Assembly (NCBI RefSeq): GCF_000715075.1
Contig: NC_134095.1
Span: forward strand, 50,582,806-50,646,805
Direction: 5' to 3'
Source of the DNA: Nicotiana tabacum
Taxonomy: Eukaryota; Streptophyta; Magnoliopsida; Solanales; Solanaceae
DNA length: 64,000 nt
Below, piece after piece: positions 1 to 44,807 of this stretch (position 1 is its first letter; every line of letters starts with the position of its first letter). The notes beneath the pieces are model-generated. The model was given only the letters and a program-made list of their open reading frames with translations. It did no database searches and was not told the origin of the DNA. The position numbers and the translations under genes are program-made.

Positions 1-1200
1 AGAGGGATACCCTTGCCGAAATCAAAGGTTATAAACCTCAAGGCCAAGGCCCGTGGACGAACAAGGAGAGCAATGAGCATGATTTGGGAAATTCATGCGA
101 GACTAAAAGGTCGAAAAAATGCAAGTTTCCGAGCCATGCCACGAAAGAAGAGGGATATCCCCAGCAGAAAGGAATTATCCCCAGCAAACAATATCATCCC
201 CACCAAGTTTTGGAACGCAGAGCAAGGAAGGAAAAAGGGAAAACCATCCCAGTAGGAGTATCACAACCAACCACCACGTTTTAAACTAACAAATTTTGTT
301 TGATTTGAAACAGGTAAAGGAAATGGCATTGATGCCAGAAATGCATGCCACAAGGGATATCATCAAACTAGGGCAGAAAATTTTCCTTCCATTTAGAAAA
401 TTTTCTGGAAGTCAGGTACCCATTCGAGGAAAAATAAAAATAACACCAGTCTCAAGGGAAGTGGTCTTTGAACCAGTGTTGCCCCCAACATAATAAGTTT
501 CAATGGAGGAAGTTGTTCCCCAGCAGACAGAACAAAGGGATGACACTTGTGCTCAGAAAAGCAAAAGGCCAGTATCATTCCCAACAGCCTTCCAAAGAGT
601 GAAGCACTAGTTCTGAAGGAATCAGAATCCTCCAGCAGTGTTATCCTCGACAGCGTTATCCCCAGCTGATAACATTCCATCCCCCAACAGGTAAGTAAAT
701 AATTCCCCAACACTGTTATCCCCAACAGTTTCGAGGAGTCCAACACAAGTTTGGTGAAAATCGGTGTCCTCAGCGGTTCCTTTCGGGGAAAGGCAAAACG
801 AGTTTTAAGGGAGGTAGTCTTCGAAGGAAGAAGCTAGCAAGAGAAAAAAAGAGAAAAAAAAAGAAAAGAAAAATAAGGGAAGTAGTTTGCAGAGGAATGA
901 AGCATCCTACTTAAAAGGAGGTAATTTTGGAAGGAGTAAGATAACATATTTACTCAGCAGAGTTATCCTCAGCAGTGTTAGCCCCAGCAGGGTTACTCAG
1001 CAGTTCGCAGTGTTATCCCCAGCTGATCATCGAGATGTAGAAGCATCTTCGACAGAGTTTCGACCAAGTTTCAAGAGGGTCGGACAACCCAGAGTGGGTA
1101 AAGAAGAAAAGGAAAATTCATCCCCAGCAAAATAATCCCCAGCAGTTTCGAGGGAAGACAACACAGGTAAGTAAATAATTCAGGAATAAGGAAATGGTTT

Positions 1201-1748
1201 ACCCATAGGAGAGGCATTTCCTCCTAAGTTTGTTTTACCCATAGGAGACGCATTTCCTCCTAAGTTTGTTTTTACCCATAGGAGAGGCATTTCCTCCTAA
1301 GTTTAGTTTCACCCATAGGAGAGGCATTTCCTCCTAAGTTTAGTTTTACCCCATAGGAGAGGCATTTCCTCCTAAGTTTATTTTTTTACCCATAGGAAAT
1401 GCATTTCCTCCTAAAGTTTAGTTTTACCCCTAGGATACGCACTTCCTAAGATTATTTTTACCCATAGGAGAGGCATTTCCTCCTAAGTTTGTTTTTACCC
1501 ATAGGAGATGCATTTCCTCCTAAGTTTAGTTTTACCCATAGGAGAGGCATTTCCTCCTAAGTTTATTTTTACCCATAGGAGAGGCATTTCCTCTTAAGTT
1601 TAGTTTTACTCATAGGAGAGGCATATACTCCTAAGTTTGTTTTACCCATAGGAGAGGCATATCCTCCTAAGTTTAGTTTTACCCATAGGAAAGGCATTTC
1701 CTCCTAAGTTTAGTTTTACCCATAGGAAAGGCATTTCCTCCTAAAGTT
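1201..1748 (+). repeat. Minisatellite A, unit 0 (15 copies, about 37 bp)
   Basis: Repeat core is ACCCATAGGAGAGGCATTTC followed by CTCCTAAGTTTAGTTTT. I count 15 copies. Each core contains AGGAG...CTCCT, so each copy can form a small hairpin. Copy 7 is diverged (CCCCTAGGATACGCACTTCC) and marks the register in all three arrays. Confidence 0.92.
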
Positions 1749-1867
1749 TGAAATCAGGAGCCCGCCTGAAGAGAAGAGTGGCGTTTTTATTTTTCAAAGT
1801 TGTTGTTGAAGTTAGGCGCCCACCTGGATAACAAGGGAATACATTTCTGTTTTCATTTCATGTTCTA

Positions 1868-2578
1868 GGTTGCCCACCAGTATAATGCGGGAATACATTT
1901 TGTCTTTTCATTTCATGTTCTAGGTCGCCCACCAGTATAATGCGGGAATACATTTCTGTTCTAGGTCGCCCACCAGTATAATGCGGGAATACATTTCATG
2001 TTCTAGGTCGCCCACCAGTATAATGCGGGAATACATTTCTGTCTTTTCATTTCTGTTCTAGGTCGCCCACCAGTATAATGCGGGAATACATTTCATGTTC
2101 TAGGTCGCCCACCAGTATAATGCGGGAATACATTTCAATTCTAGGTCGCCCACCAGTAAAATGCGGGAATACTTTTAAGTTCTAGGTTGCCCACCAGTAA
2201 AATGCGGGAATACATTTAAGTTCTAGGTCGCCCACCAGTAAAATGCGGGAATACATTTAAGTTCTAGGTCGCCCACCAGTAAAATGCGGGAATATATTTA
2301 AGTTCTAGGTCGCCCACCAGTATAATGCGGGAATACTTTTAAGTTCTAGGTCGCCCACCAGTAAAATGCGGGAATATATTTAAGTTCTAGGTCGCCCACC
2401 AGTATAATGCGGGAATACTTTTAAGTTCTAGGTCGCCCACCAGTAAAATGCGGGAATACATTTCAGTTTTCCATTTCCAGGTCGCCCACCAGTATAATGC
2501 AGGCATACATTTCACTTTTCCATTTCCAGGTCGCCCACCAGTATAATGCGGGCATACATTTCATTTTTCCATTTCCAG
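1868..2578 (+). repeat. Minisatellite B, unit 0 (16 copies, about 41 bp)
   Basis: Repeat core is GGTCGCCCACCAGTATAATG then CGGGAATACATTTAAGTTCTA, with TATAATG and TAAAATG subtypes. I count 16 copies. The outer copies have longer tails (CTTTTCATTT or TTTTCCATTTCC) and the inner ones are uniform. Confidence 0.92.
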
Positions 2579-3129
2579 GCACCCACCTGTATAACGAGAG
2601 GAATACTTTTCAGTCTTATACTGCAGATTTTGAAGTCAGTAACCCCACCGGAAGGCAGAAGGTTACAACAAGAATCCCCAGCAGGTAAAAATAAAAATCC
2701 CAACACCGGAAGGCAGAAGGTGGCAACAAGAAGTCTTAGAGCAAATTCAAGTGCATGAGTCAAAAGAAAGAAAAGACGCGTCTTGATGAATCTGATGAAG
2801 ATAATCGTGTCCCAAGAGGAACAGCCAAAAAGCTTAATGAAGAAAGCCATGTCCCCAGCGGACCGAACAAAATGACGAAAACTGGTATTAAAAAAAAAAC
2901 AAGGGCCAGAAGTCTTGGTAAAAAGGCACCAGAGGAAACACAAACCGACAAAAGGCAAGGCAACCGGAGCAAGGGGGAAAACAGATAAGATTCTGTAATT
3001 TCTAGCTTAGTCTAGCTTCTTATTTTTTTAAGCATGGTGTAATAAGGAGGTCAGCAAACAGTAAAAGTAGCATGCAACAACAGTAACATTGCAGTCCCAT
3101 GGTAGTCCCAGCTACCAAGACTTCCCGAA

Positions 3130-3194
3130 CTACATTGACCTGATTCCTGTTTAGCCCAGGATATGTAGGAAACCTTTGAAGCAAAGGTTCGGTC
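3130..3194 (+). other. Pseudoknot motif, copy D (unit 0)
   Basis: P1 is CTACA/TGTAG (3130-3134 with 3164-3168). P2 is TCCTG/CAGGA. P3 is AACCTTTG/CAAAGGTT with loop AAG (3171-3189). A 4-bp pseudoknot pairs GACC (3137-3140) with GGTC (3191-3194). The linker TGAT lies between the pseudoknot strand and P2, and TA between P2 and P1. Here P1 has an A-T pair where copies A-C have G-C. Confidence 0.75.
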
Positions 3195-3287
3195 AAATCT
3201 TTTTCAAAAAATGCTTCACACGGAGTACTCGGATGGGCAAAAATCGCTCGCTTTATCTTTGCACGAAAACCCTTCGTGTCTTCGGGC

Positions 3288-3296
3288 AAAGAGGGG
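3288..3296 (+). other. Polypurine tract before LTR1
   Basis: AAAGAGGGG followed by CAGC lies directly before the TG of the LTR, where plus-strand priming is expected. The same tract occurs before LTR2 and LTR3. Confidence 0.7.
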
Positions 3297-3905
3297 CAGC
3301 TGTAAGCACGTGATTTTTGCCCAATATGAGAATTACTCCCAAAAAAAATGATTTTTCTTTGATGTGCAATTTTGTGATATTTTGTGATATTTTGAATAAT
3401 TATTTGTATTTGTCTGTGCATGTTTATTTGCTAAATTAATAAAAAATACAAAAATATGTCGCATTTTGCATGTTGGATTTAATTCTACAATTGATAATAA
3501 TTAAATTTGTTTTACAAAAATATAAAAATTACAAAAATAGGCATCGTGTGCATTTTTAGCATTTAATGTCCAAATATACAATTTTATGCTTAATTAATAC
3601 TTAATTGTGCGTTAATTGTTATTGGGAGTTAATTTGCGCTTTTATAACTTAATTTAGTTCTTAATAATAGTTTAAGTATTTTATAATTTAGTTTTAGAAA
3701 AATAAAAGAAGAAAAGAGAGCGAAAATATAAATAAAGTCGGAATTGGGCCTTTTCTTCAATTTCAAGCCACATGCCCAAAAAATGGCCCAATCTTCCCTA
3801 CGACCCAGTCCATTTCGAACTGGGTCAACCCGGTCCATAACCCAACACCCTATTATCTTGCATTTCAAAAAATAAAACAAAGAAAAAAAAAAGAATAGTA
3901 ATAGT

Positions 3906-3914
3906 AAACCCTAA
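3906..3914 (+). promoter_or_regulatory. Telo-box AAACCCTAA in LTR1
   Basis: AAACCCTAA sits directly upstream of the GC-rich block of the LTR. Equivalent sites lie just before the poly-C run in LTR2 and LTR3. Telo-boxes are known in promoters of plant translation-related genes. A role here is inference, since this site is about 2 kb upstream of the TATA box. Confidence 0.35.
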
Positions 3915-5971
3915 AAATGCCTAAGCATCCCCCCCCCATTTCTCCTTCTTCTTCCTCAAAACTCCAAAGCACAACCATGGCTGCCCTCACCAACATCGAC
4001 CACCCTCCACCACGAACACCCCCTCACGTCGTCACACTCACACACACATGCACAAACAAACGACACAACAGTCCATCGCCCCAACGTTGTTTCTCCATTG
4101 AAGCTCAAGCTCGACCATGGACTACCCGTTGCTTCTGCTTCAGCGTCCTCTTAGTTGCTGCCTCACTTCGTCTTCTTCAGCTCGAATAGCCATAGCCACT
4201 GCTTCGTCGTCCTCCACACCGTAGCCGCTGCTCCTCCACACCGTCGACACTGTTCCTCCTCCTAGCTCCATAAACTCAGTCACGTCCAAACAACCCCGTC
4301 GCGGCCAGCTGCTCCTGTTCTGCGAGCTTCATTTTCTTCGTGCTGCTGCCATGGTTGTCGCTGCTATTGCTTCAACTTTCTTCTACTGCTGCTCGCGTTT
4401 CATGGCTGCTGTCGCGACTGCGTCTTCTCTTCGTCGCCGCGGCTATCGCCGCTAATTCCTCCGTCGAGCTGCTGTTGTTTCTGCCTTCATCAAGGCTCGT
4501 TGATGCTGTTTCTCCTCCTTCTACTAAGCAGCTGCTCCCAGCCCACACGACCCTATGTGCACGTCGAACAGTTGAAAACAAACCACGCTGCTGCATCGAC
4601 TATTGCTTCACTTCGGCGTCAACTCCAGTCGAGTTCGCGTACATGGATGAGTTTTGGTCGATGTCGTCGATCACTGTTCGAGTTCGTTGTTGGTTGGTCG
4701 TTTGTTCGTCGTTTCAATCCGGTTGGTAGATTTTGAGTTTTATTTTTTGCCCGTAATTTGTTTGATATTTTTCGGATCCAAAATCGATAAATGATTCAAT
4801 TCTTGTTTTGTTTGTTCATCATTGAAATAATTTTTTTTTAGTTTGTTTATATGTTTGGTTGGTTTAATTTTCAGATTCAAATCAAAATTTAATTAATTGA
4901 TTTTCAGTTTATTTCATGTTAATTTAATTTTTGCAAAAAAAAAGGAATTGTTAGTTTAGGTTTAATATTGTTAGATTTAGTTTAAATCGCTTGAATCCGT
5001 TGTTTGTTTAATATAGATTTCATTCATGATCATGTATCTTTGTTATATTTTTTTTGTTGGATTTAATTAAGAAAGATTAATTGATTATTTGAAGATTAAT
5101 GATTTGAATATGTTTATTTGTTTTGTTTAAGTTCAATTCGAAATTTGAATAAAATTTGTTATTGTGGTTGAATCTTTTCATTCATGTTCATACTTTGTTT
5201 GATTGATCTTGAATCCGAAATTTGTATAGTTTGATTTTCTTATTTCTTGTTTATCATTTGTGATTATTTCTTGAATTGGTCTCATAATCTTGTTTAAAGT
5301 TTAATATAAGAATTGTTTGTTGTAATGTTGTTAGAGTTGATTTTAAGTTCAATATTATTGAATTTAAGAATCTAAATATACTTGTTTGATTGTTGTTGTT
5401 TAAATCCGAAAAATAGGTTTGTTGTTGCTAAAAATATTGTTCAATCAAATTTTAGTTGTTCTTGGTTGTTCAATTTGTGTTCATGTGATTTGTTGTTGAA
5501 ATGTTGTTAAAATCATGTTCATGTGATATTGTTGTTATGATGTTCATCCGTGTTTATATTATTGTTTGAACATTGTTAGAAATTGATCATATTGTCTATA
5601 TTTTGGTTAAGTTTGATTAATTGATGTGTTATAGCTGATGGGTAGTTTGGTAAATTCGTAGTACGTTCAGGGGTAGTTTGGTAATTTCAGTAAGGTCGGA
5701 GGGGGTAGTTTAGGAATTGTACATTTTGTAATTATTTATTTGAAAGCATGGGGGACAAAATGAAATGGGGTGGGTTGTGATATGATTATTTAATATAAAG
5801 GGGGGACAAGATTTAAATTAAAGGGGAATCTTGCATTATTTTAAATAAAGCATGGGGGACAAAATATAATGGGGTGGTGTGATATATTTATTTAATGTAA
5901 TGGGGATGAGTGAGAATATAATGGGTTTGGTAGAGAAAGGGATTGATTTTAATTGATTAAAGGGTGGGGAT

Positions 5972-5979
5972 TATATATA
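5972..5979 (+). promoter_or_regulatory. TATA box of LTR1 (likely U3/R boundary region)
   Basis: TATATATA sits in a G-rich to A-rich transition, followed by GAGAGG and a purine-rich leader. This is a typical plant retrotransposon promoter context. Transcription would begin around 6000-6010, leaving about 2.1 kb of R plus U5. The same box is at 18626-18633 in LTR2 and 30766-30773 in LTR3. Confidence 0.55.
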
Positions 5980-6914
5980 GAGAGGTCTGAAAAATCAGAA
6001 AAGGGGAAGAAATACAGATAGAAAAAAAAGAGAGATTGAAAAAAGCTGAACATTTATTCCGAAAAAAAAACATTGAAACTCTCAAGAAAAGAAAAACATA
6101 CAAAGAAAAAAAAAAGTTGAAAATTAGAAGAGAAAGTAGGACACACCTGATAAATATTCTGGTATACAGGTGTAGAAATTAAGGGTTGAAGATTAACTAG
6201 CCTTTCAAAAATCTGAAAATTTCCCTTGGTTTCTGTCCATTATTTTCGGCATTCCTGGATTTTATTTTGAATTTTTCAAAGCTGTCACTGGGATTTTCGT
6301 TGACTGGTTATTGCTGGTTATTGTTGCTGTTGCTGTGTTACGTATTACGTTGCTGACTTTCTTCTTCTTATATTGACAATATCAGGTACACAACTGTAAT
6401 TTTGGCATTTTGTAAGCTGAAATGAAGAATGGAGTGTTAAATTTTTAATTTAGTTTAATTTAATTTTTTGTATTGTATTTAGGTTATTCATGTATTATTA
6501 TTCTGTAAATCACTGTCATCGGCATAACTAGGCATATTATAGCGACATATTAAATAACGCCTTTACCAGATTATTAGGAAATATATTTAAGCCTGATTAT
6601 TAATTAAAACTGTTTAAATAAAAATTATAGAAGAAATAACGTAAAAATGGCGTTATTGAATCAGTTTGGCAAAAATTAACTAAGTTCCTTATTCATAAGG
6701 TTTTTCGTCAACGATAAGTTAATCCGAATCATGTAGTCAATTTCAGTTATAACATGAATTAGTTTGCGAACAAGTATTAGGACATGATGAATTAAAACAA
6801 AGTTAGTTAATGTTAAATTGTTTAAATTTTTAGAAATATGATTTAGTACTCAAGTTTTTATTTTTATTTCTTTCAATTTTCAGTATTTGTAAATAATTAG
6901 TTTCAATAAGCTTA

Positions 6915-7426
6915 AGTCTTACTAACAATTTGAATTTTAATCCAACTATGGGATAATTAGTTTTTTTTATTTTTATTTTTTTACTTTTCGATAATTCCAT
7001 GTTGTATTTATGATTATAATTTTATTACTTTCTGTTAATATTTGTTTTTCTCTTCTATTTAATATGTCATTTTCAAGAATGTAGATATTGATTTTATATT
7101 TATAAAAAACTTAGTAATAATAAAAAGGTAGTCATTAAAGGATATTCTTAAAGGATTTCACTAAAAATAAATAGATAGTCTTACTAACAATATGAATTTT
7201 AATCCAACTATGGGATAATTAGTTTTTTTTTTTACTTTTCGATAATTCCATGTTGTATTTATGATTATAATTTTATTACTTTCTGTTAATATTTGTTTTT
7301 CTCTTCTATTTAATATGTCATTTTCAAGAATGTAGATATTGATTTTATATTTATAAAAAACTTAGTAATAATAAAAAGGTAGTCATTAAAGGATATTCTT
7401 AAAGGATTTCGCTAAAAATAAATAGA
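6915..7426 (+). repeat. 262-bp tandem duplication within LTR1
   Basis: The block starting AGTCTTACTAACAA at 6915 is repeated from 7177 and ends near AATAAATAGA. Both halves share poly-T runs, ATTCCATGTTG and AAAGGTAGTCATT. Because all three LTRs carry it, the duplication predates the array. Confidence 0.85.
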
Positions 7427-8090
7427 TGTAAATAATACAAATTTACAGGATTCTCCAATCTCATTTATTTATTTAATTACTTAAAAAAATTACTTAGAAT
7501 TTGGGATGGATTGTTTAGTGAATTTCACTTCCTTCCCCAAAGATAATGACGCGCTAGACTCTTTAGGCGCGATTTAATTAATTTTACCTTCTTAAACTCG
7601 GATGCGCATTTCATGCGACCCAAATCTAAATCCTAAAACATCAAATAAAATATGTTTCGTATTGTGGGTGCATTTCATGTGACACAATCCAAAGATATGT
7701 TTTAAGCGATGTTCACATTCCTAAAAAATAATAATTATAATAATAAAGCGGTAAAAGATAAAATTTGCACATGGTTCATAATTGTATTAAAAATCAGATA
7801 AATAAGCCGAATATAACAGTTGAGCGACCGTGCTAGAACCACGGAACTCGGGAATGCCTAACACCTTCTCCCGGGTTAACAGAATTCCTTATCCGGATTT
7901 CTGGTACGCAGACTGTAATATAGAGTCATTCTTTTCCTCGATTCGGGATTAAAATTGGTGACTTGGGACACCCTAAATCTCCCAAGTGGCGACTCTGAAA
8001 TAATTAAACCAATCCCGTTTCGACTGTCCTTTAATTGGAAAAAACTCCCTACGCACCTCGCGGTGCCGGAAAAAGGAGGTGTGACAGCTC

Positions 8091-8108
8091 TGGCGACTCT
8101 GCTGGGGA
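8091..8108 (+). other. Primer-binding-site-like sequence after LTR1
   Basis: TGGCGACTCTGCTGGGGA begins four bases after the LTR end. It opens with TGG, complementary to the CCA end of a tRNA, as a minus-strand primer site should. The style resembles PBSs of Tat/Ogre-type elements. I cannot assign the tRNA with confidence. Confidence 0.7.
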
Positions 8109-8572: not shown

Positions 8573-9456
8573 GTGTACCAAAAAAATAAAAATGATCATC
8601 CTGATGCATCTTACTTGCTGCTACTTGCGCATTTATTTGATTCGGACTTGTGTGTAGACCGATTTTTGAATATCAGGAATATTGTGAAATTGAAAAAAAA
8701 GAAAAAAAAAGAAAGAAATAGCTGTTAGGGAATTGATTGTTTATTTCTGAAAAAAAAAACAATGCCCAAATACTGTCAAAAACTCTGCCAAAATTTTGAG
8801 AAAATGAGAAAAAAAAATGTCTTATTAGTTTGTTTTATTAAAAGCAAAGGAAAAATAGAAAAAAAAGTCGTTGTTCTGTCTTGTTTTTTTTGTAAAAAAA
8901 ATAATAAAAAAAAAATAGTTTGTCTTGCCAAGAAAATTCAAAGTAAAATTCCAAAAGATATGTCTTGCAAAATATATATATATAAATCTTTATTTTCCAT
9001 TATTGATTTCTTTAAAAAGTCTTTTAATTGTTTCTTTTAAAAAAAATATATATATATATATATAAAAATAAAAATAAAAATATTTTCTTTGAAAAAAAAA
9101 ATCGAAAATATTTTGATTCTTCTTTCAAAATTGAAAAGAAAATTCAAAATTCAAAAAAATATTTTTTAGAAGCATTTCTTTTATTAAAGGTAAAATTCCA
9201 AAAATATTTTCTTTCTTCTTTAGAATAAGAGAAAACAAATGAAAATTCAGACAAAAAATATTTTCCTTTTACTTTTGAAATTCTCAAAGTTCAAATCAAA
9301 AGAAAAGGAATTCTTAGAAGTCTTTCTTTCAAAAAGAAAATCAATCAAAAATCCAAAAAAAAAATATACTTCCTTTCTTCTTTTAAAGCAGTTCTTTTAC
9401 AAATTCAAAAAAATAATAATAATTAGTTTATTTACTTTATTCACGACCTGCCCGAA

Positions 9457-9518
9457 CTACGCGGGTTTGATTCTCACCGGATGTGAGATACGTAGGCAAC
9501 CCTCATCGGGTCCAACCC
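9457..9518 (+). other. Pseudoknot motif, copy A (internal 1)
   Basis: P1 is CTACG/CGTAG (9457-9461 with 9491-9495). P2 is TCTCAC/GTGAGA with loop CGGAT. P3 is ACCC/GGGT with loop TCATC. The pseudoknot pairs GGGTT (9463-9467) with AACCC (9514-9518). The TGAT and TA linkers are conserved. Confidence 0.75.
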
Positions 9519-9662
9519 CCTTTTTTGCTAAAATAGCCAAAAACCAATAAATAAATAAAAAACGTGTCAAAATTTTAATTTTTGTCATAAATAAGTCATG
9601 CGGTGTCCAACCTCTCCTTTTGCTAAAAAAATAGCCAAAAAAAAATGTCAAATTTTAATTTT

Positions 9663-10064
9663 GTCATAAAGAAGTCGGGTGACGCTGTTTTATCAAGACA
9701 TAGCCGAATGTTCCCGAAAGGGACGCCGGAAGGCTGACTTTGCATAAACAGCCACCTTTGGGTTATTTTTTAAAAATTTGGTCCGGTTGACCCACACAGC
9801 CTTAAAAATCTTCGTCCCCGAGGCGTTGAAAGGCCGTGTTTGCAATATTGAGTTTTCTAATTTGAAAAATGATAAAAAGAGTCATAAAGAAGTCGGGTGA
9901 CGCTATTTTATCAAGACATAGCCGAATGTTCCCTAAAGGGACGCCGGAAGGCTGACTTTGCATAAACAGCCACCTTTTGGGTCATGTTTAGGATTTTTGG
10001 TCTAGTTGACCCACACAGCCTTAAAAATCTTCGTCCCCGAGGCGCTGAAGGGCCGTGTTTGCAA
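9663..10064 (+). repeat. 218-bp tandem duplication, internal 1
   Basis: GTCATAAAGAAGTCGGGTGA begins at 9663 and again at 9881. Both copies run through GACGCCGGAAGGCTGAC, GACCCACACAGCC and CGTCCCCGAGGCG to GGCCGTGTTTGCAA; the second is shorter. It recurs in internal 2, so it predates the array. Confidence 0.85.
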
Positions 10065-10190
10065 CACCACGATTTCATTGTAATTTGAAAAGAAAAAAAA
10101 ACAAAGAGTCAGCGGTCAGGTGAATACCGTTTGGATTTTTGGTCAAAATAAGTCGAGCCAGCTTCGACCGCGTCTTAAACCGTTCTTGCC

Positions 10191-10234
10191 GAAATAGCCT
10201 TAGAGTATCTTTCAGTTGTCGAAAGGCTATTTTC
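10191..10234 (+). other. Long imperfect hairpin in internal 1
   Basis: GAAATAGCCTT (10191-10201) pairs with AAGGCTATTTTC (about 10223-10234) around a loop of about 20 nt. The same structure is kept in internal 2 (about 22858-22901). No function is suggested by the sequence. Confidence 0.45.
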
Positions 10235-10514
10235 GTAAAAGAATGAACAAGTTTGTAAAGTGTCATAAAATAATCCTCTCCGGCCTCAAAATTTGGAAGG
10301 GCCACATTTGCAAAAATAACCGTTCGGTTGCATTTGTCAAACGGAGAAAGGAAGCTGGCCGTTTGTTTTTGGAGTTTGTAAATCTTTTAATTAGAATATG
10401 TGGGTTGTTTGATTTTCGAGTTTGTAGGTCATCTTCAAACCTTTGAAACCCAGTTTATTTTAATATGAAAATTGAAAAAAATGATTAGTATTGTTTATCT
10501 TTTATTGGTCCGAA

Positions 10515-10575
10515 CTACGCAAGGTCTGATTCATGCGGGGTCATAATACGTAGGCAATCTCCATAAGATTCGGCC
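10515..10575 (+). other. Pseudoknot motif, copy B (internal 1)
   Basis: P1 is CTACG/CGTAG (10515-10519 with 10549-10553). P2 is an imperfect stem with one C-A mismatch. P3 is AATCT/AGATT with loop CCATA. The pseudoknot pairs GGTC (10523-10526) with GGCC (10572-10575), including one G-U pair. The TGAT and TA linkers are conserved. Confidence 0.7.
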
Positions 10576-11815
10576 ACAACAAAAAAAATGAAAAAAAAAT
10601 CGAAAAAAAAGGAAAAGAAAAAAAAAGAAAAAAAAAGGAAAAGATGTTGTTAATAATGAGGACCGACTGAGTCCATTTTAACTTGTTGTTTTGAACCACA
10701 AAGAAAGAAGGTGGTTGGTTTGTGGTAAGCCGGACAATGACACCCAGAATATCGCGCAGAATCCTTTACTTGCACCTCATGATACACACTCTACGGGAAT
10801 CGGGCCTGATAACAGAAGCACTCGAATCCTATTGGGGACTTGTTGACGGAGGTTGATGATATTAAAGCTGATAATGGTCTTGACAGTATTGATGCGAAGC
10901 TCAGTGGCTAAGATGCCAATTTTGATAAAGTGGGAGGACGCTCCGTTCCTTGGTTAGCAAGAGAGAAGCTTGTGGTGGCTTATTTTGTTGTTATTTCTGT
11001 TGTCCGGATTATTCTTAGGGTTGTAATCCGAATATTGTCTTGTGTCAAACCTTCTTATTTTTCTATTTTGTCATAGCGGTTTGTTTAAGTTTTGTCCAGG
11101 CTATTTTGGGATATTATTTCGGTTGGTTTCGGTTGTTTTGTTATTCAAACCATTTCACCGGTAGTCTAATACAAAATCCGGTCTTTTATTATTTTCATTC
11201 ATCTTTTTGTTTGATCCTTTTATCATTTTGTTTAGCGCCGATTCTAGTAACATGACATGCGCACACAGTTTGGGCCTAGTCTTTAAAGTTAATCATAAAA
11301 CTCCGGAAAGGCAATCAGAACATTTAAAGGAAATAAGAACGGTTTGAGATTATTTGAAGCCCGAGTCATGTGGAACTGGGGCAAGTAAAACATAAAGAAA
11401 ATCATTAAATGCAAGATTCGCCAAATTGGCATGAGGGTCGTTCATAAGAGTGAGAGTGTCGCCCAACGGTGCTTTAGAAATGACAAATGAAAAAGCAAGT
11501 GTTTAACATAATTGTCAAGTCCAGCACCATCGGAAGAGGCTATAAATCTATGTTCAATTGTGTTGTTTGCACTTGACATGTTTTGAAGACTGGAATGACG
11601 AAGGCATTTTGTTCTGCTAACTAAACACTTTATCCTTCATTACCCCTTTTGAGCCTTATTTATTTTCTTTCATACCCCTCGTTCGGAATCAATAGCAACG
11701 ACTAGGAAATACGAGCCTGGAAGGTAAAGAAAAAAAATAAAAAAAAAACGAAAAAAAAGAAGAAGAGAAAAATGATAACAAAAAAAAAGTCAAATGAAAA
11801 CAAAGGAATTGGGAA

Positions 11816-11869
11816 CTACGATCGACCTGATTCCTCAAAGAGGATACGTAGGCGCCTCACGGCTCGGTC
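11816..11869 (+). other. Pseudoknot motif, copy C (internal 1)
   Basis: P1 is CTACG/CGTAG (11816-11820 with 11847-11851). P2 is TCCTC/GAGGA with loop AAA. P3 is GCC/GGC with loop TCAC. The pseudoknot pairs GACC (11824-11827) with GGTC (11866-11869). The TGAT and TA linkers are conserved. Confidence 0.75.
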
Positions 11870-13924
11870 ATGGTGTTAAAAATTTTTTTTTTTAAAAAAA
11901 ATATATAAATAAATAATCCCCAAGCAAGAAACTGGGGCAAGGGTTGCGTTTGTTGTAAACAAATATGATTCCGAAGGTTGAAATTTTAAAACCCCAAATT
12001 TATTTTGTTTTTGAGCCTTAAATACCCTTTCTTTCTAGCCTATCCAAAACCCACATTACAGTCCAAAGAAAGACCTTCTGATCAGTTTTCAAAAGATGCC
12101 AAGTCAGACAAATGAGAGTCTTACCGGCGAACATAATATTTTGTTCCACAGCAGAAAGAGTCATACCGGCAACACTCCTAATCCCCAGTAGGAAAGTGAT
12201 ACAAATGAGAAAGTCTTATCGGTGAAAATCTTTACGGACACCGTAAGACGATGAAAGCTGAGAGAAAAAACAAAATGAGAGAGACTTGATAGTGAAAACC
12301 CTTTGGGCACTACAAGTCGAATAAGATTGAGAATCAGATGGGGAATCGCCAAATGAAGATCTTGAAAGATGATTGACGGTAGAGGATAGGCCACATGTGC
12401 ATGTCATGACCATTAGAGTCGGTATCTGCATTTGATAGGTTTTTATTTATGGTTTCTTTTGTTAAAGAGTCATCTTTTTCCTTTGTCCTTTTATTCTGTT
12501 CCCTTTTATCTTTTTCCTTTCATAGAAAAATTCCCCAATAGAGTCTGTTTGGTCAGAACAAGTGTGAATTGACTTCAAAATATGCCATCAGCTTTCCAAT
12601 TATGCAAGATGAGATCTGACTAGTACATCCAAGTGGTATAGTCAGCAAGGAACAAGCGCGAGGCCAGTGTCAAAAAGATATCCCCAGCAAAAGGGAATTG
12701 ACAAAAGGATTGACGAGTCTCAAGAGGGATACCCTTGCCGAAATCAAAGGTTATAAACCTCAAGGCCAAGGCCCGTGGACGAACAAGGAGAGCAATGAGC
12801 ATGATTTGGGAAATTCATGCGAGACTAAAAGGTCGAAAAAATGCAAGTTTCCGAGCCATGCCACGAAAGAAGAGGGATATCCCCAGCAGAAAGGAATTAT
12901 CCCCAGCAAACAATATCATCCCCACCAAGTTTTGGAACGCAGAGCAAGGAAGGAAAAAGGGAAAACCATCCCAGTAGGAGTATCACAACCAACCACCACG
13001 TTTTAAACTAACAAATTTTGTTTGATTTGAAACAGGTAAAGGAAATGGCATTGATGCCAGAAATGCATGCCACAAGGGATATCATCAAACTAGGGCAGAA
13101 AATTTTCCTTCCATTTAGAAAATTTTCTGGAAGTCAGGTACCCATTCGAGGAAAAATAAAAATAACACCAGTCTCAAGGGAAGTGGTCTTTGAACCAGTG
13201 TTGCCCCCAACATAATAAGTTTCAATGGAGGAAGTTGTTCCCCAGCAGACAGAACAAAGGGATGACACTTGTGCTCAGAAAAGCAAAAGGCCAGTATCAT
13301 TCCCAACAGCCTTCCAAAGAGTGAAGCACTAGTTCTGAAGGAATCAGAATCCTCCAGCAGTGTTATCCTCGACAGCGTTATCCCCAGCTGATAACATTCC
13401 ATCCCCCAACAGGTAAGTAAATAATTCCCCAACACTGTTATCCCCAACAGTTTCGAGGAGTCCAACACAAGTTTGGTGAAAATCGGTGTCCTCAGCGGTT
13501 CCTTTCGGGGAAAGGCAAAACGAGTCTTAAGGGAGGTAGTCTTCGAAGGAAGAAGCTAGCAAGAAAAAAAAGAGAAGAAAAAAAAAGAAAAGAAAAATAA
13601 GGGAAGTAGTTTGCAGAGGAATGAAGCATCCTACTTAAAAGGAGGTAATTTTGGAAGGAGTAAGATAACATATTTACTCAGCAGAGTTATCCTCAGCAGT
13701 GTTAGCCCCAGCAGGGTTACTCAGCAGTTCGCAGTGTTATCCCCAGCTGATCATCGAGATGTAGAAGCATCTTCGACAGAGTTTCGACCAAGTTTCAAGA
13801 GGGTCGGACAACCCAGAGTGGGTAAAGAAGAAAAGGAAAATTCATCCCCAGCAAAATAATCCCCAGCAGTTTCGAGGGAAGACAACACAGGTAAGTAAAT
13901 AATTCAGGAATAAGGAAATGGTTT

Positions 13925-14470
13925 ACCCATAGGAGAGGCATTTCCTCCTAAGTTTGTTTTACCCATAGGAGACGCATTTCCTCCTAAGTTTGTTTTTACC
14001 CATAGGAGAGGCATTTCCTCCTAAGTTTAGTTTCACCCATAGGAGAGGCATTTCCTCCTAAGTTTAGTTTTACCCCATAGGAGAGGCATTTCCTCCTAAG
14101 TTTATTTTTTTACCCATAGGAAATGCATTTCCTCCTAAAGTTTAGTTTTACCCCTAGGATACGCACTTCCTAAGATTATTTTTACCCATAGGAGAGGCAT
14201 TTCCTCCTAAGTTTGTTTTTACCCATAGGAGATGCATTTCCTCCTAAGTTTAGTTTTACCCATAGGAGAGGCATTTCCTCCTAAGTTTATTTTTACCCAT
14301 AGGAGAGGCATTTCCTCTTAAGTTTAGTTTTACTCATAGGAGAGGCATTTCCTCCTAAGTTTGTTTTACCCATAGGAGAGACATATCCTCCTAAGTTTAG
14401 TTTTACCCATAGGAAAGGCATTTCCTCCTAAGTTTAGTTTTACCCATAGGAAAGGCATTTCCTCCTAAAG
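13925..14470 (+). repeat. Minisatellite A, unit 1 (15 copies)
   Basis: Same 15-copy array and same order of variants as 1201-1748, with a few substitutions such as AGAGACATATCC in copy 13. Confidence 0.92.
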
Positions 14471-14591
14471 TTTGAAATCAGGAGCCCGCCTGAAGAGAAG
14501 AGTGGCGTTTTTATTTTTCAAAGTTGTTGTTGAAGTTAGGCGCCCACCTGGATAACAAGGGAATACATTTCTGTTTTCATTTCATGTTCTA

Positions 14592-15466
14592 GGTTGCCCA
14601 CCAGTATAATGCGGGAATACATTTTGTCTTTTCATTTCATGTTCTAGGTCGCCCACCAGTATAATGCGGGAATACATTTCTGTTCTAGGTCGCCCACCAG
14701 TATAATGCGGGAATACATTTCATGTTCTAGGTCGCCCACCAGTATAATGCGGGAATACATTTCTGTCTTTTCATTTCTGTTCTAGGTCGCCCACCAGTAT
14801 AATGCGGGAATACATTTCATGTTCTAGGTCGCCCACCAGTATAATGCGGGAATACATTTCAGTTCTAGGTCGCCCACCAGTAAAATGCGGGAATACTTTT
14901 AAGTTCTAGGTCGCCCACCAGTAAAATGCGAGAATACATTTAAGTTCTAGGTCGCCCACCAGTAAAATGCGGGAATACATTTAAGTTCTAGGTCGCCCAC
15001 CAGTAAAATGCGGGAATACATTTAAGTTCTAGGTCGCCCACCAGTAAAATGCGGGAATACATTTAAGTTCTAGGTCGCCCACCAGTAAAATGCGGGAATA
15101 TATTTAAGTTCTAGGTCGCCCACCAGTAAAATGCGGGAATACATTTAAGTTCTAGGTCGCCCACCAGTAAAATGCGGGAATATATTTAAGTTCTAGGTCG
15201 CCCACCAGTATAATGCGGGAATACTTTTAAGTTCTAGGTCGCCCACCAGTAAAATGCGGGAATATATTTAAGTTCTAGGTCGCCCACCAGTATAATGCGG
15301 GAATACTTTTAAGTTCTAGGTCGCCCACCAGTAAAATGCGGGAATACATTTCAGTTTTCCATTTCCAGGTCGCCCACCAGTATAATGCAGGCATACATTT
15401 CACTTTTCCATTTCCAGGTCGCCCACCAGTATAATGCGGGCATACATTTCATTTTTCCATTTCCAG
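14592..15466 (+). repeat. Minisatellite B, unit 1 (20 copies)
   Basis: Same array expanded to 20 copies. The extra four are all inner TAAAATG-type copies; the flanking diagnostic copies are unchanged. The length excess over unit 0 (164 bp) equals four 41-bp units. Confidence 0.92.
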
Positions 15467-16022
15467 GCACCCACCTGTATAACGAGAGGAATACTTTTCA
15501 GTCTTATACTGCACATTTTGAAGTCAGTAACCCCACCGGAAGGCAGAAGGTTACAACAAGAATCCCCAGCAGGTAAAAATAAAAATCCCAACACCGGAAG
15601 GCAGAAGGTGGCAACAAGAAGTCTCAGAGCAAATTCAAGTGCATGAGTCAAAAGAAAGAAAAGACGCATCTTGATGAATCTGATGAAGATAATCGTGTCC
15701 CAAGAGGAACAACCAAAAAGCTTAATGAAGAAAGCCATGTCCCCAGCGGACCGAACAAAATGACGAAAACTGGTATTAAAAAAAAAAAAAACCAAGGGCC
15801 AGAAGTCTTGGTAAAAAGGCACCAGAGGAAACACAAACCGACAAAAGGCAAGGCAACCGGAGCAAGGGAGAAAACAGATAAGATTCTGTAATTTCTAGCT
15901 TAGTCTAGCTTCTTATTTTTTTATGCATGGTGTAATAAGGAGGTCAGCAAACAGTAAAAGTAGCATGCAACAACAGTAACATTGCAGTCCCATGGTAGTC
16001 CCAGCTACCAAGACTTCCCGAA

Positions 16023-16087
16023 CTACATTGACCTGATTCCTGTTTAGCCCAGGATATGTAGGAAACCTTTGAAGCAAAGGTTCGGTC
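16023..16087 (+). other. Pseudoknot motif, copy D (internal 1)
   Basis: Same sequence and fold as 3130-3194. It ends about 95 nt before the polypurine tract, so it lies near the 3' end of the internal region and just upstream of the 3' LTR. Confidence 0.75.
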
Positions 16088-16180
16088 AAATCTTTTTCAA
16101 AAAATGCTTCACACGGAGTACTCGGATGGGTAAAAATCGCTCGCTTTATCTTTGCACGAAAACCCTTCGTGTCTTCGGGC

Positions 16181-20752: not shown

Positions 20753-20770
20753 TGGCGACTCTGCTGGGGA
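20753..20770 (+). other. Primer-binding-site-like sequence after LTR2
   Basis: Identical to the site after LTR1, with the same four-base spacer. No such site follows LTR3, where flanking DNA begins, so LTR3 is the array's terminal 3' LTR. Confidence 0.7.
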
Positions 20771-21728: not shown

Positions 21729-22122
21729 AAAATAAAAATAAAAATATTTTCTTTGAAAAAAAAAATCGAAAATATTTTGATTCTTCTTTCAAAATTGAAA
21801 AGAAAATTCAAAATTCAAAAAAATATTTTTTAGAAGCATTTCTTTTATTAAAGGTAAAATTCCAAAAATATTTTCTTTCTTCTTTAGAATAAGAGAAAAC
21901 AAATGAAAATTCAGACAAAAAATATTTTCCTTTTACTTTTGAAATTCTCAAAGTTCAAATCAAAAGAAAAGGAATTCTTAGAAGTCTTTCTTTCAAAAAG
22001 AAAATCAATCAAAAATCCAAAAAAAAAAATATACTTCCTTTCTTCTTTTAAAGCAGTTCTTTCACAAATTCAAAAAAAAAAATTTAAAATTAGTTTATTT
22101 ACTTTATTCATGGCAGCCCGAA

Positions 22123-22184
22123 CTACGCGGGTTTGATTCTCACCGGATGTGAGATACGTAGGCAACCCTCATCGGGTCCAACCC
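22123..22184 (+). other. Pseudoknot motif, copy A (internal 2)
   Basis: Same fold and paired bases as 9457-9518. The sequence just upstream has changed (TCATGGCAG for TCACGACCTGC), while the folded core is unchanged. Confidence 0.75.
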
Positions 22185-22731: not shown

Positions 22732-23181
22732 CACCACGATTTCATTGTAATTTGAAAAGAAAAAAAAACAAAGAGTCAGCGGTCAGGTGAATACCGTTTG
22801 GATTTTTGGTCAAAATAAGTCGAGCCAGCTTCGACCGCGTCTTAAACCGTTCTTGCCGAAATAGCCTTAGAGTATCTTTCAGTTGTCGAAAGGCTATTTT
22901 CGTAAAAGAATGAACAAGTTTGTAAAGTGTCATAAAATAATCCTCTCCGGCCTCAAAATTTGGAAGGGCCACATTTGCAAAAATAACCGTTCGGTTGCAT
23001 TTGTCAAACGGAGAAAGGAAGCTGGCCGTTTGTTTTTGGAGTTTGTAAATCTTTTAATTAGAATATGTGGGTTGTTTGATTTTCGAGTTTGTAGGTCATC
23101 TTCAAACCTTTGAAACCCAGTTTATTTTAATATGAAAATTGAAAAAAATGATTAGTATTGTTTATCTTTTATTGGTCTGAA

Positions 23182-23242
23182 CTACGCAAGGTCTGATTCA
23201 TGCGGGGTCATAATACGTAGGCAATCTCCATAGGATTCGGCC
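23182..23242 (+). other. Pseudoknot motif, copy B (internal 2)
   Basis: Same as 10515-10575 except that the 3' strand of P3 reads GGATT instead of AGATT. This turns a U-A pair into a U-G pair, so P3 stays paired. Confidence 0.7.
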
Positions 23243-24072
23243 ACAACAAAAAAAATGAAAAAAAAATCGAAAAAAAAGGAAAAGAAAAAAAAAAGAAAAA
23301 AAAAGGAAAAGATGTTGTTAATAATGAGGACCGACTGAGTCCATTTTAACTTGTTGTTTTGAACCACAAAGAAAGAAGGTGGTTGGTTTGTGGTAAGCCG
23401 GACAATGACACCCAGAATATCGATAACAAAAAATCCGGTCTTTTATTATTTCCATTCATCTTTTTGTTTGATCCTTTTATCATTTTGTTTAGCGCCGATT
23501 CTAGTAACATGACATGCGCACACAGTTTGGGCCTAGTCTTTAAAGTTAATCATAAAACTCCGGAAAGGCAATCAGAACATTTAAAGGAAATAAGAACGGT
23601 TTGAGATTATTTGAAGCCCGAGTCATGTGGAACTGGGGCAAGTAAAACATAAAGAAAATCATTAAATGCAAGATTTGCCAAATTGGCATGAGGGTCGTTC
23701 ATAAGAGTGAGAGTGTCGCCCAACGGTGCTTTAGAAATGACAAATGAAAAAGCAAGTGTTTAACATAATTGTCAAGTCCAGCACCATCGGAAGAGGCTAT
23801 AAATCTATGTTCAATTGTGTTGTTTGCACTTGACATGTTTTGAAGACTGGAATGACGAAGGCATTTTGTTCTGCTAACTAAACACTTTATCCTTCATTAC
23901 CCCTTTTGAGCCTTATTTATTTTCTTTCATACCCCTCGTTCGGAATCAATAGCAACGACTAGGAAATACGAGCCTGGAAGGTAAAGAAAAAAAATAAAAA
24001 AAAAACGAAAAAAAAGAAGAAGAGAAAAATGATAACAAAAAAAAAGTCAAATGAAAACAAAGGAATTGGGAA

Positions 24073-24126
24073 CTACGATCGACCTGATTCCTCAAAGAGG
24101 ATACGTAGGCGCCTCACGGCTCGGTC
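24073..24126 (+). other. Pseudoknot motif, copy C (internal 2)
   Basis: Identical in all paired positions to 11816-11869. The poly-A/T sequence just downstream has small length changes. Confidence 0.75.
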
Positions 24127-26181
24127 ATGGTGTTAAAATTTTTTTTTTTAAAAAAAATATATAAATAAATAATCCCCAAGCAAGAAACTGGGGCAAGGGT
24201 TGCGTTTGTTGTAAACAAATATGATTCCGAAGGTTGAAATTTTAAAACCCCAAATTTATTTTGTTTTTGAGCCTTAAATACCCTTTCTTTCTAGCCTATC
24301 CAAAACCCACATTACAGTCCAAAGAAAGACCTTCTGATCAGTTTTCAAAAGATGCCAAGTCAGACAAATGAGAGTCTTACCGGCGAACATAATATTTTGT
24401 TCCACAGCAGAAAGAGTCATACCGGCAACACTCCAAATCCCCAGTAGGAAAGTGATACAAATGAGAGAGTCTTATCGGTGAAAATCTTTACGGACACCGT
24501 AAGGCGATGAAAGCTGAGAGAAAAAACAAAATGAGAGAGACTTGATAGTGAAAACCCTTTGGGCACTACAAGTCGAATAAGATTGAGAATCAGATGGGGA
24601 ATCGCCAAATGAAGATCTTGAAAGATGATTGACGGTAGAGGATAGGCCACATGTGCATGTCATGACCATTAGAGTCGGTATCTGCATTTGATAGGTTTTT
24701 ATTTATGGTTTCTTTTGTTAAAGAGTCATCTTTTTCCTTTGTCCTTTTATTCTGTTCCCTTTTATCTTTTTCCTTTCATAGAAAATTTCCCCAATAGAGT
24801 CTGTTTGGTCAGAACAAGTGTGAATTGACTTCAAAATATGCCATCAGCTTTCCAATTATGCAAGATGAGATCTGACTAGTACATCCAAGTGGTATAGTCA
24901 GCAAGGAACAAGCGCGAGGCCAGTGTCAAAAAGATATCCCCAGCAAAAGGGAATTGACAAAAGGATTGACGAGTCTCAAGAGGGATACCTTTGCCGAAAT
25001 CAAAGGTTATAAACCTCAAGGCCAAGGCCCGTGGACGAACAAGGAGAGCAATGAGCATGATTTGGGAAATTCATGCGAGACTAAAAGGTCGAAAAAATGC
25101 AAGTTTCCGAGCCATGCCACGAAAGAAGAGGGATATCCCCAGCAGAAAGGAATTATCCCCAGCAAACAATATCATCCCCACCAAGTTTTGGAACGCAGAG
25201 CAAGGAAGGAAAAAGGGAAAACCATCCCAGTAGGAGTATCACAACCAACCACCACGTTTTAAACTAACAAATTTTGTTTGATTTGAAACAGGTAAAGGAA
25301 ATGGCATTGATGCCAGAAATGCATGCCACAAGGGATATCATCAAACTAGGGCAGAAAATTTTCCTTCCATTTAGAAAATTTTCTGGAAGTCAGGTACCCA
25401 TTCGAGGAAAAATAAAAATAACACCAGTCTCAAGGGAAGTGGTCTTTGAACCAGTGTTGCCCCCAACATAATAAGTTTCAATGGAGGAAGTTGTTCCCCA
25501 GCAGACAGAACAAAGGGATGACACTTGTGCTCAGAAAAGCAAAAGGCCAGTATCATTCCCAACAGCCTTCCAAAGAGTGAAGCACTAGTTCTGAAGGAAT
25601 CAGAATCCTCCAGCAGTGTTATCCTCGACAGCGTTATCCCCAGCTGATAACATTCCATCCCCCAACAGGTAAGTAAATAATTCCCCAACACTGTTATCCC
25701 CAACAGTTTCGAGGAGTCCAACACAAGTTTGGTGAAAATCGGTGTCCTCAGCGGTTCCTTTCGGGGAAAGGCAAAATGAGTCTTAAGGGAGGTAGTCTTC
25801 GAAGGAAGAAGCTAGCAAGAAAAAAAAAAGAAGAAAAAAAAAAGAAAAGAAAAATAAGGGAAGTAGTTTGCAGAGGAATGAAGCATCCTACTTAAAAGGA
25901 GGTAATTTTGGAAGGAGTAAGATAACATATTTACTCAGCAGAGTTATCCTCAGCAGTGTTAGCCCCAGCAGGGTTACTCAGCAGTTCGCAGTGTTATCCC
26001 CAGCTGATCATCGAGATGTAGAAGCATCTTCGACAGAGTTTCGACCAAGTTTCAAGAGGGTCGGACAACCCAGAGTGGGTAAAGAAGAAAAGGAAAATTC
26101 ATCCCCAGCAAAATAATCCCCAGCAGTTTCGAGGGAAGACAACACAGGTAAGTAAATAATTCAGGAATAAGGAAATGGTTT

Positions 26182-26729
26182 ACCCATAGGAGAGGCATTT
26201 CCTCCTAAGTTTGTTTTACCCATAGGAGACGCATTTCCTCCTAAGTTTGTTTTTACCCATAGGAGAGGCATTTCCTCCTAAGTTTAGTTTCACCCATAGG
26301 AGAGGCATTTCCTCCTAAGTTTAGTTTTACCCCATAGGAGAGGCATTTCCTCCTAAGTTTATTTTTTTACCCATAGTAAATGCATTTCCTCCTAAAGTTT
26401 AGTTTTACCCCTAGGATACGCACTTCCTAAGATTATTTTTACCCATAGGAGAGGCATTTCCTCCTAAGTTTGTTTTTACCCATAGGAGATGCATTTCCTC
26501 CTAAGTTTAGTTTTACCCATAGGAGAGGCATTTCCTCCTAAGTTTATTTTTACCCATAGGAGAGGCATTTCCTCTTAAGTTTAGTTTTACTCATAGGAGA
26601 GGCATTTCCTCCTAAGTTTGTTTTACCCATAGGAGAGGCATATCCTCCTAAGTTTAGTTTTACCCATAGGAAAGGCATTTCCTCCTAAGTTTAGTTTTAC
26701 CCATAGGAAAGGCATTTCCTCCTAAAGTT
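26182..26729 (+). repeat. Minisatellite A, unit 2 (15 copies)
   Basis: Same 15-copy array and variant order. A single change in copy 6 (CATAGTAAATG) distinguishes it. Confidence 0.92.
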
Positions 26730-26848
26730 TGAAATCAGGAGCCCGCCTGAAGAGAAGAGTGGCGTTTTTATTTTTCAAAGTTGTTGTTGAAGTTAGGCGC
26801 CCACCTGGATAACAAGGGAATACATTTCTGTTTTCATTTCATGTTCTA

Positions 26849-27598: not shown

Positions 27599-28157
27599 GG
27601 CACCCACCTGTATAACGAGAGGAATACTTTTCAGTCTTATACTGCACATTTTGAAGTCAGTAACCCCACCGGAAGGCAGAAGGTTACAACAAGAATCCCC
27701 AGCAGGTAAAAATAAAAATCCCAACACCGGAAGGCAGAAGGTGGCAACAAGAAGTCTCAGAGCAAATTCAAGTGCATGAGTCAAAAGAAAGAAAAGACGC
27801 GTCTTGATGAATCTGATGAAGATAATCGTGTCCCAAGAGGAACAACCAAAAAGCTTAATGAAGAAAGCCATGTCCCCAGCGGACCGAACAAAATGACGAA
27901 AACTGGTATTAAAAAAAAAAAAAAAACCAAGGGCCAGAAGTCTTGGTAAAAAGGCACCAGAGGAAACACAAGCCGACAAAAGGCAAGGCAACCGGAGCAA
28001 GGGGGAAAACAGATAAGATTCTGTAATTTCTAGCTTAGTCTAGCTTCTTATTTTTTTATGCATGGTGTAATAAGGAGGTCAGCAAACAGTAAAAGTAGCA
28101 TGCAACAACAGTAACATTGCAGTCCCATGGTAGTCCCAGCTACCAAGACTTCCCGAA

Positions 28158-28222
28158 CTACATTGACCTGATTCCTGTTTAGCCCAGGATATGTAGGAAA
28201 CCTTTGAAGCAAAGGTTCGGTC
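28158..28222 (+). other. Pseudoknot motif, copy D (internal 2)
   Basis: Identical to copy D in the other units, including the CTACA/TGTAG form of P1. It lies about 95 nt upstream of the polypurine tract of LTR3. Confidence 0.75.
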
Positions 28223-28315
28223 AAATCTTTTTCAAAAAATGCTTCACACGGAGTACTCGGATGGGTAAAAATCGCTCGCTTTATCTTTGCACGAAAACCC
28301 TTCGTGTCTTCGGGC

Positions 28316-36354: not shown

Positions 36355-36359
36355 GGCTA

Positions 36360-36781: not shown

Positions 36782-36808
36782 CTCCCCCTTAAAGTGATTT
36801 TTTGGAAG

Positions 36809-39392: not shown

Positions 39393-39464
39393 TTAGAGAA
39401 ACCAGTTGAATCAACCATTAACCCGACCTTGAAATCCAGAAGCCGACTTAAGGCTCTGATGCCA

Positions 39465-43150: not shown

Positions 43151-43438
43151 TCCCCCTCAAGTTAGATGGGAACTTGGTGACTCCTAACTTGCCCAAATAT
43201 CTCGATGAGAAACCCCAGAAAGGGGCTTCGTGAAGATGTCTGCAAGCTGTGCTTTAGAATGAATGAAGGAGAGAGTAATTAGCCCTGAAAGGAATTGTTG
43301 ACGCACAAAATGACAGTCAATTTCGACATGTTTTGTAAGTTCATGAAAAATGGCATTCCAGGCGATGTGAATTGTTGCCTTGATATCAGAGTGAAGGGGA
43401 ATTAGTAGAGTAACTGGTGCTAATAGATCTTCGAGAAT

Positions 43439-44803: not shown

Positions 44804-44807
44804 AATA

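Follow-up and report, generated by a model that had tools for sequence, protein, structure and literature searches.

Self-comparison revealed a head-to-tail repeat with a unit of about 12.1-12.9 kb that covers bases 1 to 32883 of the window (the whole 64-kb stretch of Nicotiana tabacum DNA analysed here, positions 50582806-50646805 of its contig in a 4.0-Gb assembly) and has the layout LTR - internal - LTR - internal - LTR. In the third LTR copy the similarity stops at 32883, one base past the ACA at 32882. The primer binding site (PBS), TGGCGACTCTGCTGGGGA, is presumably of the tRNA-Arg type. Four coding relatives (e1, e2, e3 and e6) supplied open segments of 150 codons or more as queries; none matched the element at E 1e-5, with the sole exception of motif A read in frame, twice; the coding region that would place the lineage was likewise not found in the element with these queries. 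Since no coding segment matched in a head-to-tail LTR repeat, we read it as a gene-less LTR element in tandem, in line with the original prediction of a host without coding capacity: neither ORF1 nor gag nor pol of its relatives could be detected there. DNA homology of the LTR end, the leader and the motifs described below suggests that the element is a gene-less relative of the Ogre lineage.

Table 1. Features of the host element and RNA motif copies in the window (window coordinates).
Feature	Position	Strand	Remarks
Motif copy D	3127..3196	+	Covariance model 59.4 bits; 104 nt to LTR start
Motif copy A, unit 1	9454..9518	+	From GAA to end of pseudoknot 3' strand; covariance model 77.3 bits
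Motif copy B, unit 1	10512..10575	+	Covariance model 73.0 bits
Motif copy C, unit 1	11813..11869	+	Covariance model 54.9 bits
Motif copy D, next unit	16020..16089	+	Covariance model and sequence
Motif copy A, unit 2	22120..22184	+	Covariance model and sequence
Motif copy B, unit 2	23179..23242	+	U-A to U-G change in P3
Motif copy C, unit 2	24070..24126	+	Covariance model and sequence
Motif copy D, third unit	28155..28224	+	Covariance model and sequence
37-bp and 41-bp tandem arrays	1198..2614	+	Upstream of D, 3' region of element
Polypurine tract	3288..3300	+	Directly before LTR; matching junction in relative L082
LTR of host element	3301..8086	+	Starts TGTA after polypurine tract, ends ACA
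Primer binding site	8091..8108	+	Sequence
Primer binding site, unit 2	20753..20770	+	Sequence
Second conserved leader block	9646..9840	+	Tandem duplicate at 9876-10059

Each retrotransposon unit carries four copies of an RNA motif (A to D), all four of which are kept in the gene-less element. The motif is about 65 nt long (span about 57-73 nt), lies in sense orientation, and has the strand order a - b - TGAT - hairpin P2 - TA - a' - hairpin P3 - (T)C - b', where a/a' is helix P1 (CTACG/CGTAG) and b/b' a pseudoknot. Its core is nearly fixed (GAA, CTACG, TGAT, TA, CGTAGG), whereas the arms and loops differ between copies in sequence and length; P1 and b are separated by 0-3 nt (2 nt in 20 of 34 classes). 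The original prediction had proposed a search with a covariance model and against Rfam. A model built from 41 sequences with 14 pairs, leaving the pseudoknot out (R1), found nine copies in the window, all on the + strand (two each of A, B and C and three of D), and Rfam 15 gave no match at gathering score in the window. A core pattern that does not cover the D type matched six times in the window, against none in 100 shuffles.

All pairings attributed to copies A-D by the original prediction were present when re-read from the sequence. P1 is CTACG/CGTAG in A and CTACA/TGTAG in D, and the pseudoknot strands are GGGTT/AACCC (A), GGTC/GGCC (B) and GACC/GGTC (C and D). The single P2 mismatch of copy B is a C-A, and its P3 strand changes from AAGATT in unit 1 to AGGATT in unit 2, turning one U-A into U-G. 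The range 9457-11869, into which all four copies had been placed, is right for A, B and C of one unit and wrong for D, which lies at 3127-3196. For the second leader block, RNAalifold on 41 sequences (-6.2; little covariation) gave no convincing covariation.

In the eight coding relatives that were mapped, the order is PBS, A, ORF1, B, gag and following frames, C, and in e1, the one relative followed further, D comes after C and is followed by the polypurine tract and LTR (L082). The PBS is present with 0-2 changes in seven of eight relatives (five exact), and the stretch of the eighth, e8, may begin after it. The ORF1 start peptide follows motif A at a distance of 103-536 nt, and motif B lies 155-218 nt past the ORF1 end, both in 8/8 relatives; B is 314-438 nt before gag in the six relatives in which a gag start was found, and C follows the peptide DAVKRYY, near the end of pol, by 133-337 nt (8/8). 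Regions in which the window's element matched e1 (blastn, E 1e-10) included the leader and the second leader block, 9427-9558 with motif A, 10512-10610 with motif B, 11563-11871, which ends at motif C, and 3' parts. At the same threshold e6 matched at the leader, motif A and the second block, and gave no match at B or C. AUGs were not depleted between motif and ORF (33 against 34.4 expected from A to ORF1, 32 against 33.6 from B to gag), while from the PBS to A we counted 61 against 79.8 expected.

The protein domains of these relatives resemble those of the Ogre lineage of Tat Ty3/gypsy elements. According to the part of PMC6317226 available to us, 57% of Ogre elements have a 5' extra ORF with a plant mobile domain, and the lineage has a second RNase H domain between RH and INT. 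ORF1 pieces of three relatives (L022, L024 and L026) gave PF10536 and PF24924, with the plant mobile domain (PMD) above the Pfam cut-off in 2/3 and DUF7745 in 3/3. In the one pol piece scanned (L022), RVT_3 was found at residues 580-643, after RT and RNase H. The coding relatives share with Ogre the plant mobile domain 5' ORF and, going by this one pol piece, may also have a second RNase H-like domain after RT-RH. The window's element has the long LTR and tandem repeats of the lineage and differs from it in that no coding region was found.

The motif is extremely abundant. Exact matches to the strict core pattern AACTACG..TGATYC..TACGTAGG number 57,283 in the 4.0-Gb genome (reversed control: 0), and the D-type form, in which the P1 closing pair is changed on both sides to A-U (CTACA/TGTAG), adds 25,766 (control: 0), so that both forms together reach 83,049 exact-core matches in one genome. 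Changes on one side of this pair are far rarer: 3,288 matches have the 3' side alone changed (G.U; control 0) and 2,762 the 5' side alone (A.C; control 1). Independent change of the two sides would predict about 159 A-U copies. The surplus may stem from a single ancient compensated change that the D class inherited. No support for the helix comes from the inner A-U pair of P1, where five double-change matches stand against seven in the reversed control and there is no excess; three of the five resemble real copies, only one of them compensated (G-C), and single 3' changes at this pair number 427 (control 0). Being nearly invariant with one compensated pair, P1 itself is not shown by broad covariation.

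Covariation was assessed on 112 distinct copies parsed from the fetched loci, 111 of them from the same genome or the window and one from the contig L010 discussed below; P3 was not found in 2/112. Grouping the copies by pseudoknot strand and P2 arms gave 41 classes, among which the partner strands were permuted. The five outer pairs of P2 were formed in 180 of 205 cases, compared with a permuted mean of 140.7 and a maximum of 156 (0/5000). P3 paired in 36/41 classes (mean 16.9, maximum 27; 0/5000), and the pseudoknot formed within 0-3 nt after P3 in 33/41 (mean 18.7, maximum 26; 0/5000). A looser pseudoknot test, allowing the partner anywhere in about 20 bases, was weak (36/41 against a mean of 31.7; 99/5000). 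In a MAFFT alignment with one copy per class (A1), 93.0% of the cells of 18 pairs were paired, against 82.6% after shuffling (0/500) and 18-37% when slid, and the covariation score was 0.423 against 0.226 for shuffled alignments (0/500). All four pseudoknot pairs changed on both sides in A1. Among the classes, pseudoknot types include GGTT/AACC, GGTC/GACC, GATC/GATC, GACC/GGTC, GACT/AGTC and AGTT/AACT, and some classes have an unpaired pseudoknot, for example GATT/AACT.

We also used a tree-aware null in which substitutions are redistributed on the tree, with trees from all columns and from unpaired columns. Helix scores of P2 and of the pseudoknot were never reached (0/600 each). Those of P3 were reached in 22/600 and 18/600 replicates, a weak result, and those of P1 in 59/600 and 87/600, so that P1 rests on complementarity and one compensated pair. 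Single pairs ranked 1 to 4 among all column pairs, yet had tree-null E values of 0.2-0.65. P2, P3 and the pseudoknot occur together in 94 of 111 own-genome copies, compared with 152 of 20,000 random fillings. The covariation, the shared orientation described below and the survival of motif islands in an element without its relatives' genes support the view that selection acts on an RNA fold in this non-coding retrotransposon. The original claim of such selection stands for P2 and the pseudoknot, which covary over the 41 classes instead of varying independently; for P3 the tree-aware test lends it weak support, and P1 hardly varies. Orientation was uniform: none of 30 loci with more than one copy had mixed strands, and the motif lay on the PBS strand in 22/22 copies from loci with a PBS on one strand only.

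Nested folding, which leaves out pseudoknots, turned copies A and D into a three-way junction that has b/b' as one helix and P2 and P3 as its arms. The helix named a pseudoknot in the original prediction is hence the one that closes the junction carrying both hairpins, and, given this b/b' junction, P1 is formed by the upstream strand CTACG pairing with the CGTAG strand between the two hairpins. In copy C, P2 and P3 form and part of the b strand pairs otherwise; copy B, which has the P2 mismatch, adopts another fold, and the L010 piece used as input ended before its b' strand. Nested folding energy was no better than that of shuffles for A (z 0.05) and B (z -0.87), and moderately low for C (z -2.1), D (z -2.0) and the L010 piece (z -2.5). 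We consider it nearly certain that a structured RNA module exists, and very probable that it works in cis on transposon RNA, through its fold.

We also searched collections beyond the host genome. A scan of prokaryote contigs from 84,980 species, whose search pattern prescribed P1, TGAT, the first two P2 pairs and TA, returned two matches, L009 and L010. The helices are absent from L009. L010, from a Bacilli MAG of roe deer gut, has a P2 of 7 bp, a P3 of 8 bp and a pseudoknot of 7 bp, of which the pattern required only two P2 pairs, and these helices differ from those of Ogre-lineage copies. Upstream of the motif is a 656-codon frame, open to the contig end, with hAT domains PF05699 and PF14372; 52 nt separate its stop from the GAA of the motif. 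No good Ogre protein match was found in this stretch (best E 0.046, 27 query segments), and when it was compared with the loci of the tobacco genome at the DNA level, the best match was the motif itself (53 nt, 81%). The contig looks like a chimera, with an SSB gene cut at its start so that only profile positions 59-104 are left, and a second pattern search of the MAG gave no site beyond the known one. We infer that the DNA derives from a plant eaten by the deer. The motif may be part of an hAT transcript or an old inserted fragment, between which one contig cannot tell. In the tobacco genome no hAT gene was found near the motif (best E 0.31; 69 loci, 282,618 bases, plus the window). One pattern matched eight loci of a viral collection, with three distinct cores, six of the loci carrying one core inside a shared 472-aa (or partial) frame; the full helix set was absent from all eight, as it was from L011 and L012, found with another pattern. 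Altogether, six distinct core matches other than L010 in microbial and viral-collection DNA are without the complete helix set. A scan with the PBS pattern returned a single contig, L013, whose frames resemble phage genes by eye.

Among known RNA systems, the closest in strand order are the HDV-like ribozymes, whose nested double pseudoknot follows a-b-hairpin-a'-hairpin-b', as here. They need P1.1 and a catalytic C in J4/2, and they occur in non-LTR retrotransposons such as R2, so that presence in retroelements is a second likeness. The helix names and the catalytic C are given in the part of PMC3774820 available to us. Resemblance to flavivirus class 1 xrRNAs lies in a three-way junction into which the 5' flank pairs, and in a conserved core with an arm of variable length (PMC7603331 and PMC7527734, in part). 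According to the same excerpts, these xrRNAs have PK1' between P3 and P1' and a second pseudoknot, PK2, that helps to close the ring; here the inner strand lies between P2 and P3. Membership of this class was rejected on the grounds that the motif uses another junction strand. The xrRNA_D of plant Tombusviridae and Luteoviridae share with the motif plant hosts, a pseudoknot, and intergenic and ORF-upstream positions; as far as the consulted part of PMC6299227 describes them, they consist of P1, P2 and one pseudoknot, some with a dispensable downstream P3, and the strand order of our motif is another.

The motif appears to match no described family in the sources covered. Relaxed Rfam searches gave one match beside motif A at E 6 and, in 12 loci, six matches at E 0.36-3.9, far below gathering scores and at chance level; those over motif copies were snoR138 in L062, on the other strand, and CrcZ in L063 (14 of 95 bits). 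The word GATACGTAGGCA was absent from the full-text literature searched. Judged by titles and the opening lines of abstracts, neither the papers that contain TACGTAGG together with 'retrotransposon' nor the topic literature report the motif, a scope that excludes bioRxiv and most subscription journals. In the main text of a paper on Retand, the sister lineage (PMC11963269), the terms 'RNA structure' and 'secondary structure' do not occur.

A fixed junction core with free arms suggests that the work is done by the fold. As its function we tentatively put first a fold-intrinsic block to 5'-3' RNA decay, a choice that leads our ranking while falling short of an even chance. The fold would mechanically stop a 5'-3' exonuclease of the XRN4 type, and the downstream parts of decapped or sliced transposon RNA would stay intact. 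Our reason for thinking this most likely is the closed junction into which the 5' strand is tied; xrRNAs likewise have their 5' end tied into a ring around the junction (PMC7603331 and PMC7527734, in part). Variable loops and arm lengths on a constant core are also a trait of viral xrRNAs, whose P2 varies (PMC7527734, in part), and those of plant viruses occupy intergenic positions and sites ahead of ORFs (PMC6299227, in part). In yeast, loss of Xrn1 abolishes Ty1 RNA packaging, according to the part of a review consulted (PMC12786077), a result that links decay to retrotransposition and does not favour the block itself. Several points stand against a block: a strand order unlike that of class 1 xrRNAs, ordinary nested folding energy in A and B, single-pair E values of 0.2 at best, an hAT case of one contig, the lack of e6 matches at B or C, and weak P3, P1 and looser pseudoknot tests. 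The absence of AUG depletion after the motif moreover removes one expected sign of 5'-trimmed mRNAs.

Two other roles would act on the same RNA. In the first, the Gag or ORF1 protein of an autonomous partner would bind the folds and bring the RNA into particles, and gene-less elements would have to keep them. Retention of all four copies in the gene-less element, a leader copy 1.4 kb after the PBS and the nearly fixed core agree with such packaging or dimerisation, but the loops are not conserved and the sites are scattered over the internal region, one lying 104 nt before an LTR. The fold also occurs downstream of an hAT transposase frame, in a setting that has no detectable Ogre protein matches and in which packaging would be pointless; if real, the hAT case argues against Gag packaging and speaks for an mRNA-level role. 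We rank this reading second and consider it unlikely. Ranked just after it, and also improbable in our view, is export, in which the motif would carry long, partly spliced transposon RNA out of the nucleus, a role comparable to that of retroviral CTE/RTE. The position of copy D between pol and the 3' LTR, several copies per RNA, and a fit to gene-less element and hAT mRNA alike all suit this reading, but the conserved part is the junction core and not a loop or bulge. Medicago Ogre elements have introns, and RNA export of plant LTR elements has not been studied directly, as stated in the part of PMC12786077 available to us.

The remaining readings fare worse. Internal initiation or reinitiation for ORF1 and gag would account for the placement of A upstream of ORF1 and of B upstream of gag; a translation element would hardly be retained in a gene-less element, C and D lie after pol, and the lack of AUG depletion from motif to ORF led us to reject scanning across this interval, so that we give the idea little credence. 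A self-cleaving ribozyme of HDV-like topology is less probable again, and we set it aside: strand order agrees, but key features fail. P1 has 5 bp instead of about 7, with a next outward pair possible in 0/101 copies; a strand of 0-3 nt precedes the last helix and leaves no room for P1.1, to which loops such as AAA, among the commoner ones together with GAAA, offer nothing. P1 is nearly fixed in sequence here, a conserved GAA lies upstream, and no HDV family appeared among the Rfam matches at E up to 10 or 5. Least probable of all is a repeated DNA word without RNA function, kept by DNA-level binding or recent amplification. The near-invariance of P1 and the close relationship of copies within a type would fit it, but P2 and pseudoknot strands differ between types and yet pair, only one strand is used within elements, and the hAT-linked copy has helices of 7, 8 and 7 bp beyond the two P2 pairs fixed by the pattern. 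We therefore disfavour this reading.

Beyond the tobacco element, we regard as possible, with more doubt than confidence, that the motif is a portable RNA module common to unrelated plant transposon classes (Ogre-lineage LTR elements and at least one hAT gene), with its own threaded three-way junction and most likely belonging to a large cellular class of RNAs that block exonucleases or recruit host factors. Knowledge of cis-acting RNA signals in plant LTR retrotransposons is scant. A well-defined RNA module, retained in a gene-less element, opens RNA survival, nuclear exit and the choice of RNA for copying to direct tests. Should the fold block exonucleases, viral xrRNAs would have in it a cellular counterpart at very high copy number.

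Beyond motif A, the leader of the host element carries a second block that is repeated in tandem. Its alignment, for which 41 distinct sequences were gathered from relatives, showed little covariation with RNAalifold. Each unit of the host element also bears its own set of short tandem arrays, in which the copy number of the 41-bp repeat varies from unit to unit (about 15, 19 and 16 copies).

Two further stretches of the window contain frames on the minus strand that look copia-like, as judged by eye from the sequence. The direct repeats around them (425 bp with 96.7% identity for the stretch at 36356-39883, and 477 bp with 94.3% for that at 42672-48287) look like LTRs.

Features of the window other than the RNA motif
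Feature	Window position	Remarks
Second leader block	9646-9840	Tandem duplicate at 9876-10059; conserved in relatives
37-bp and 41-bp tandem arrays	1198-2614, 13922-15502, 26179-27635	One set per unit
Stretches with minus-strand frames	36356-39883, 42672-48287	Direct repeats on both flanks
43-bp tandem array	58193-58711	Palindrome within unit (GTTAAGGACTGCCAGTCCTTAAC)
39-bp tandem array	60579-60845	About 7 copies, 93% matches

In a contig of a Bacilli MAG from roe deer gut (L010 / L083; G001:C163), the RNA motif lies 52 nt downstream of the stop of a hAT transposase frame; this contig looks like a plant-bacterium chimera.

Motif A is present twice in two of the fetched loci, 229 nt apart in L065 and 221 nt apart in L066, and hence the number of motif copies per element is elastic.
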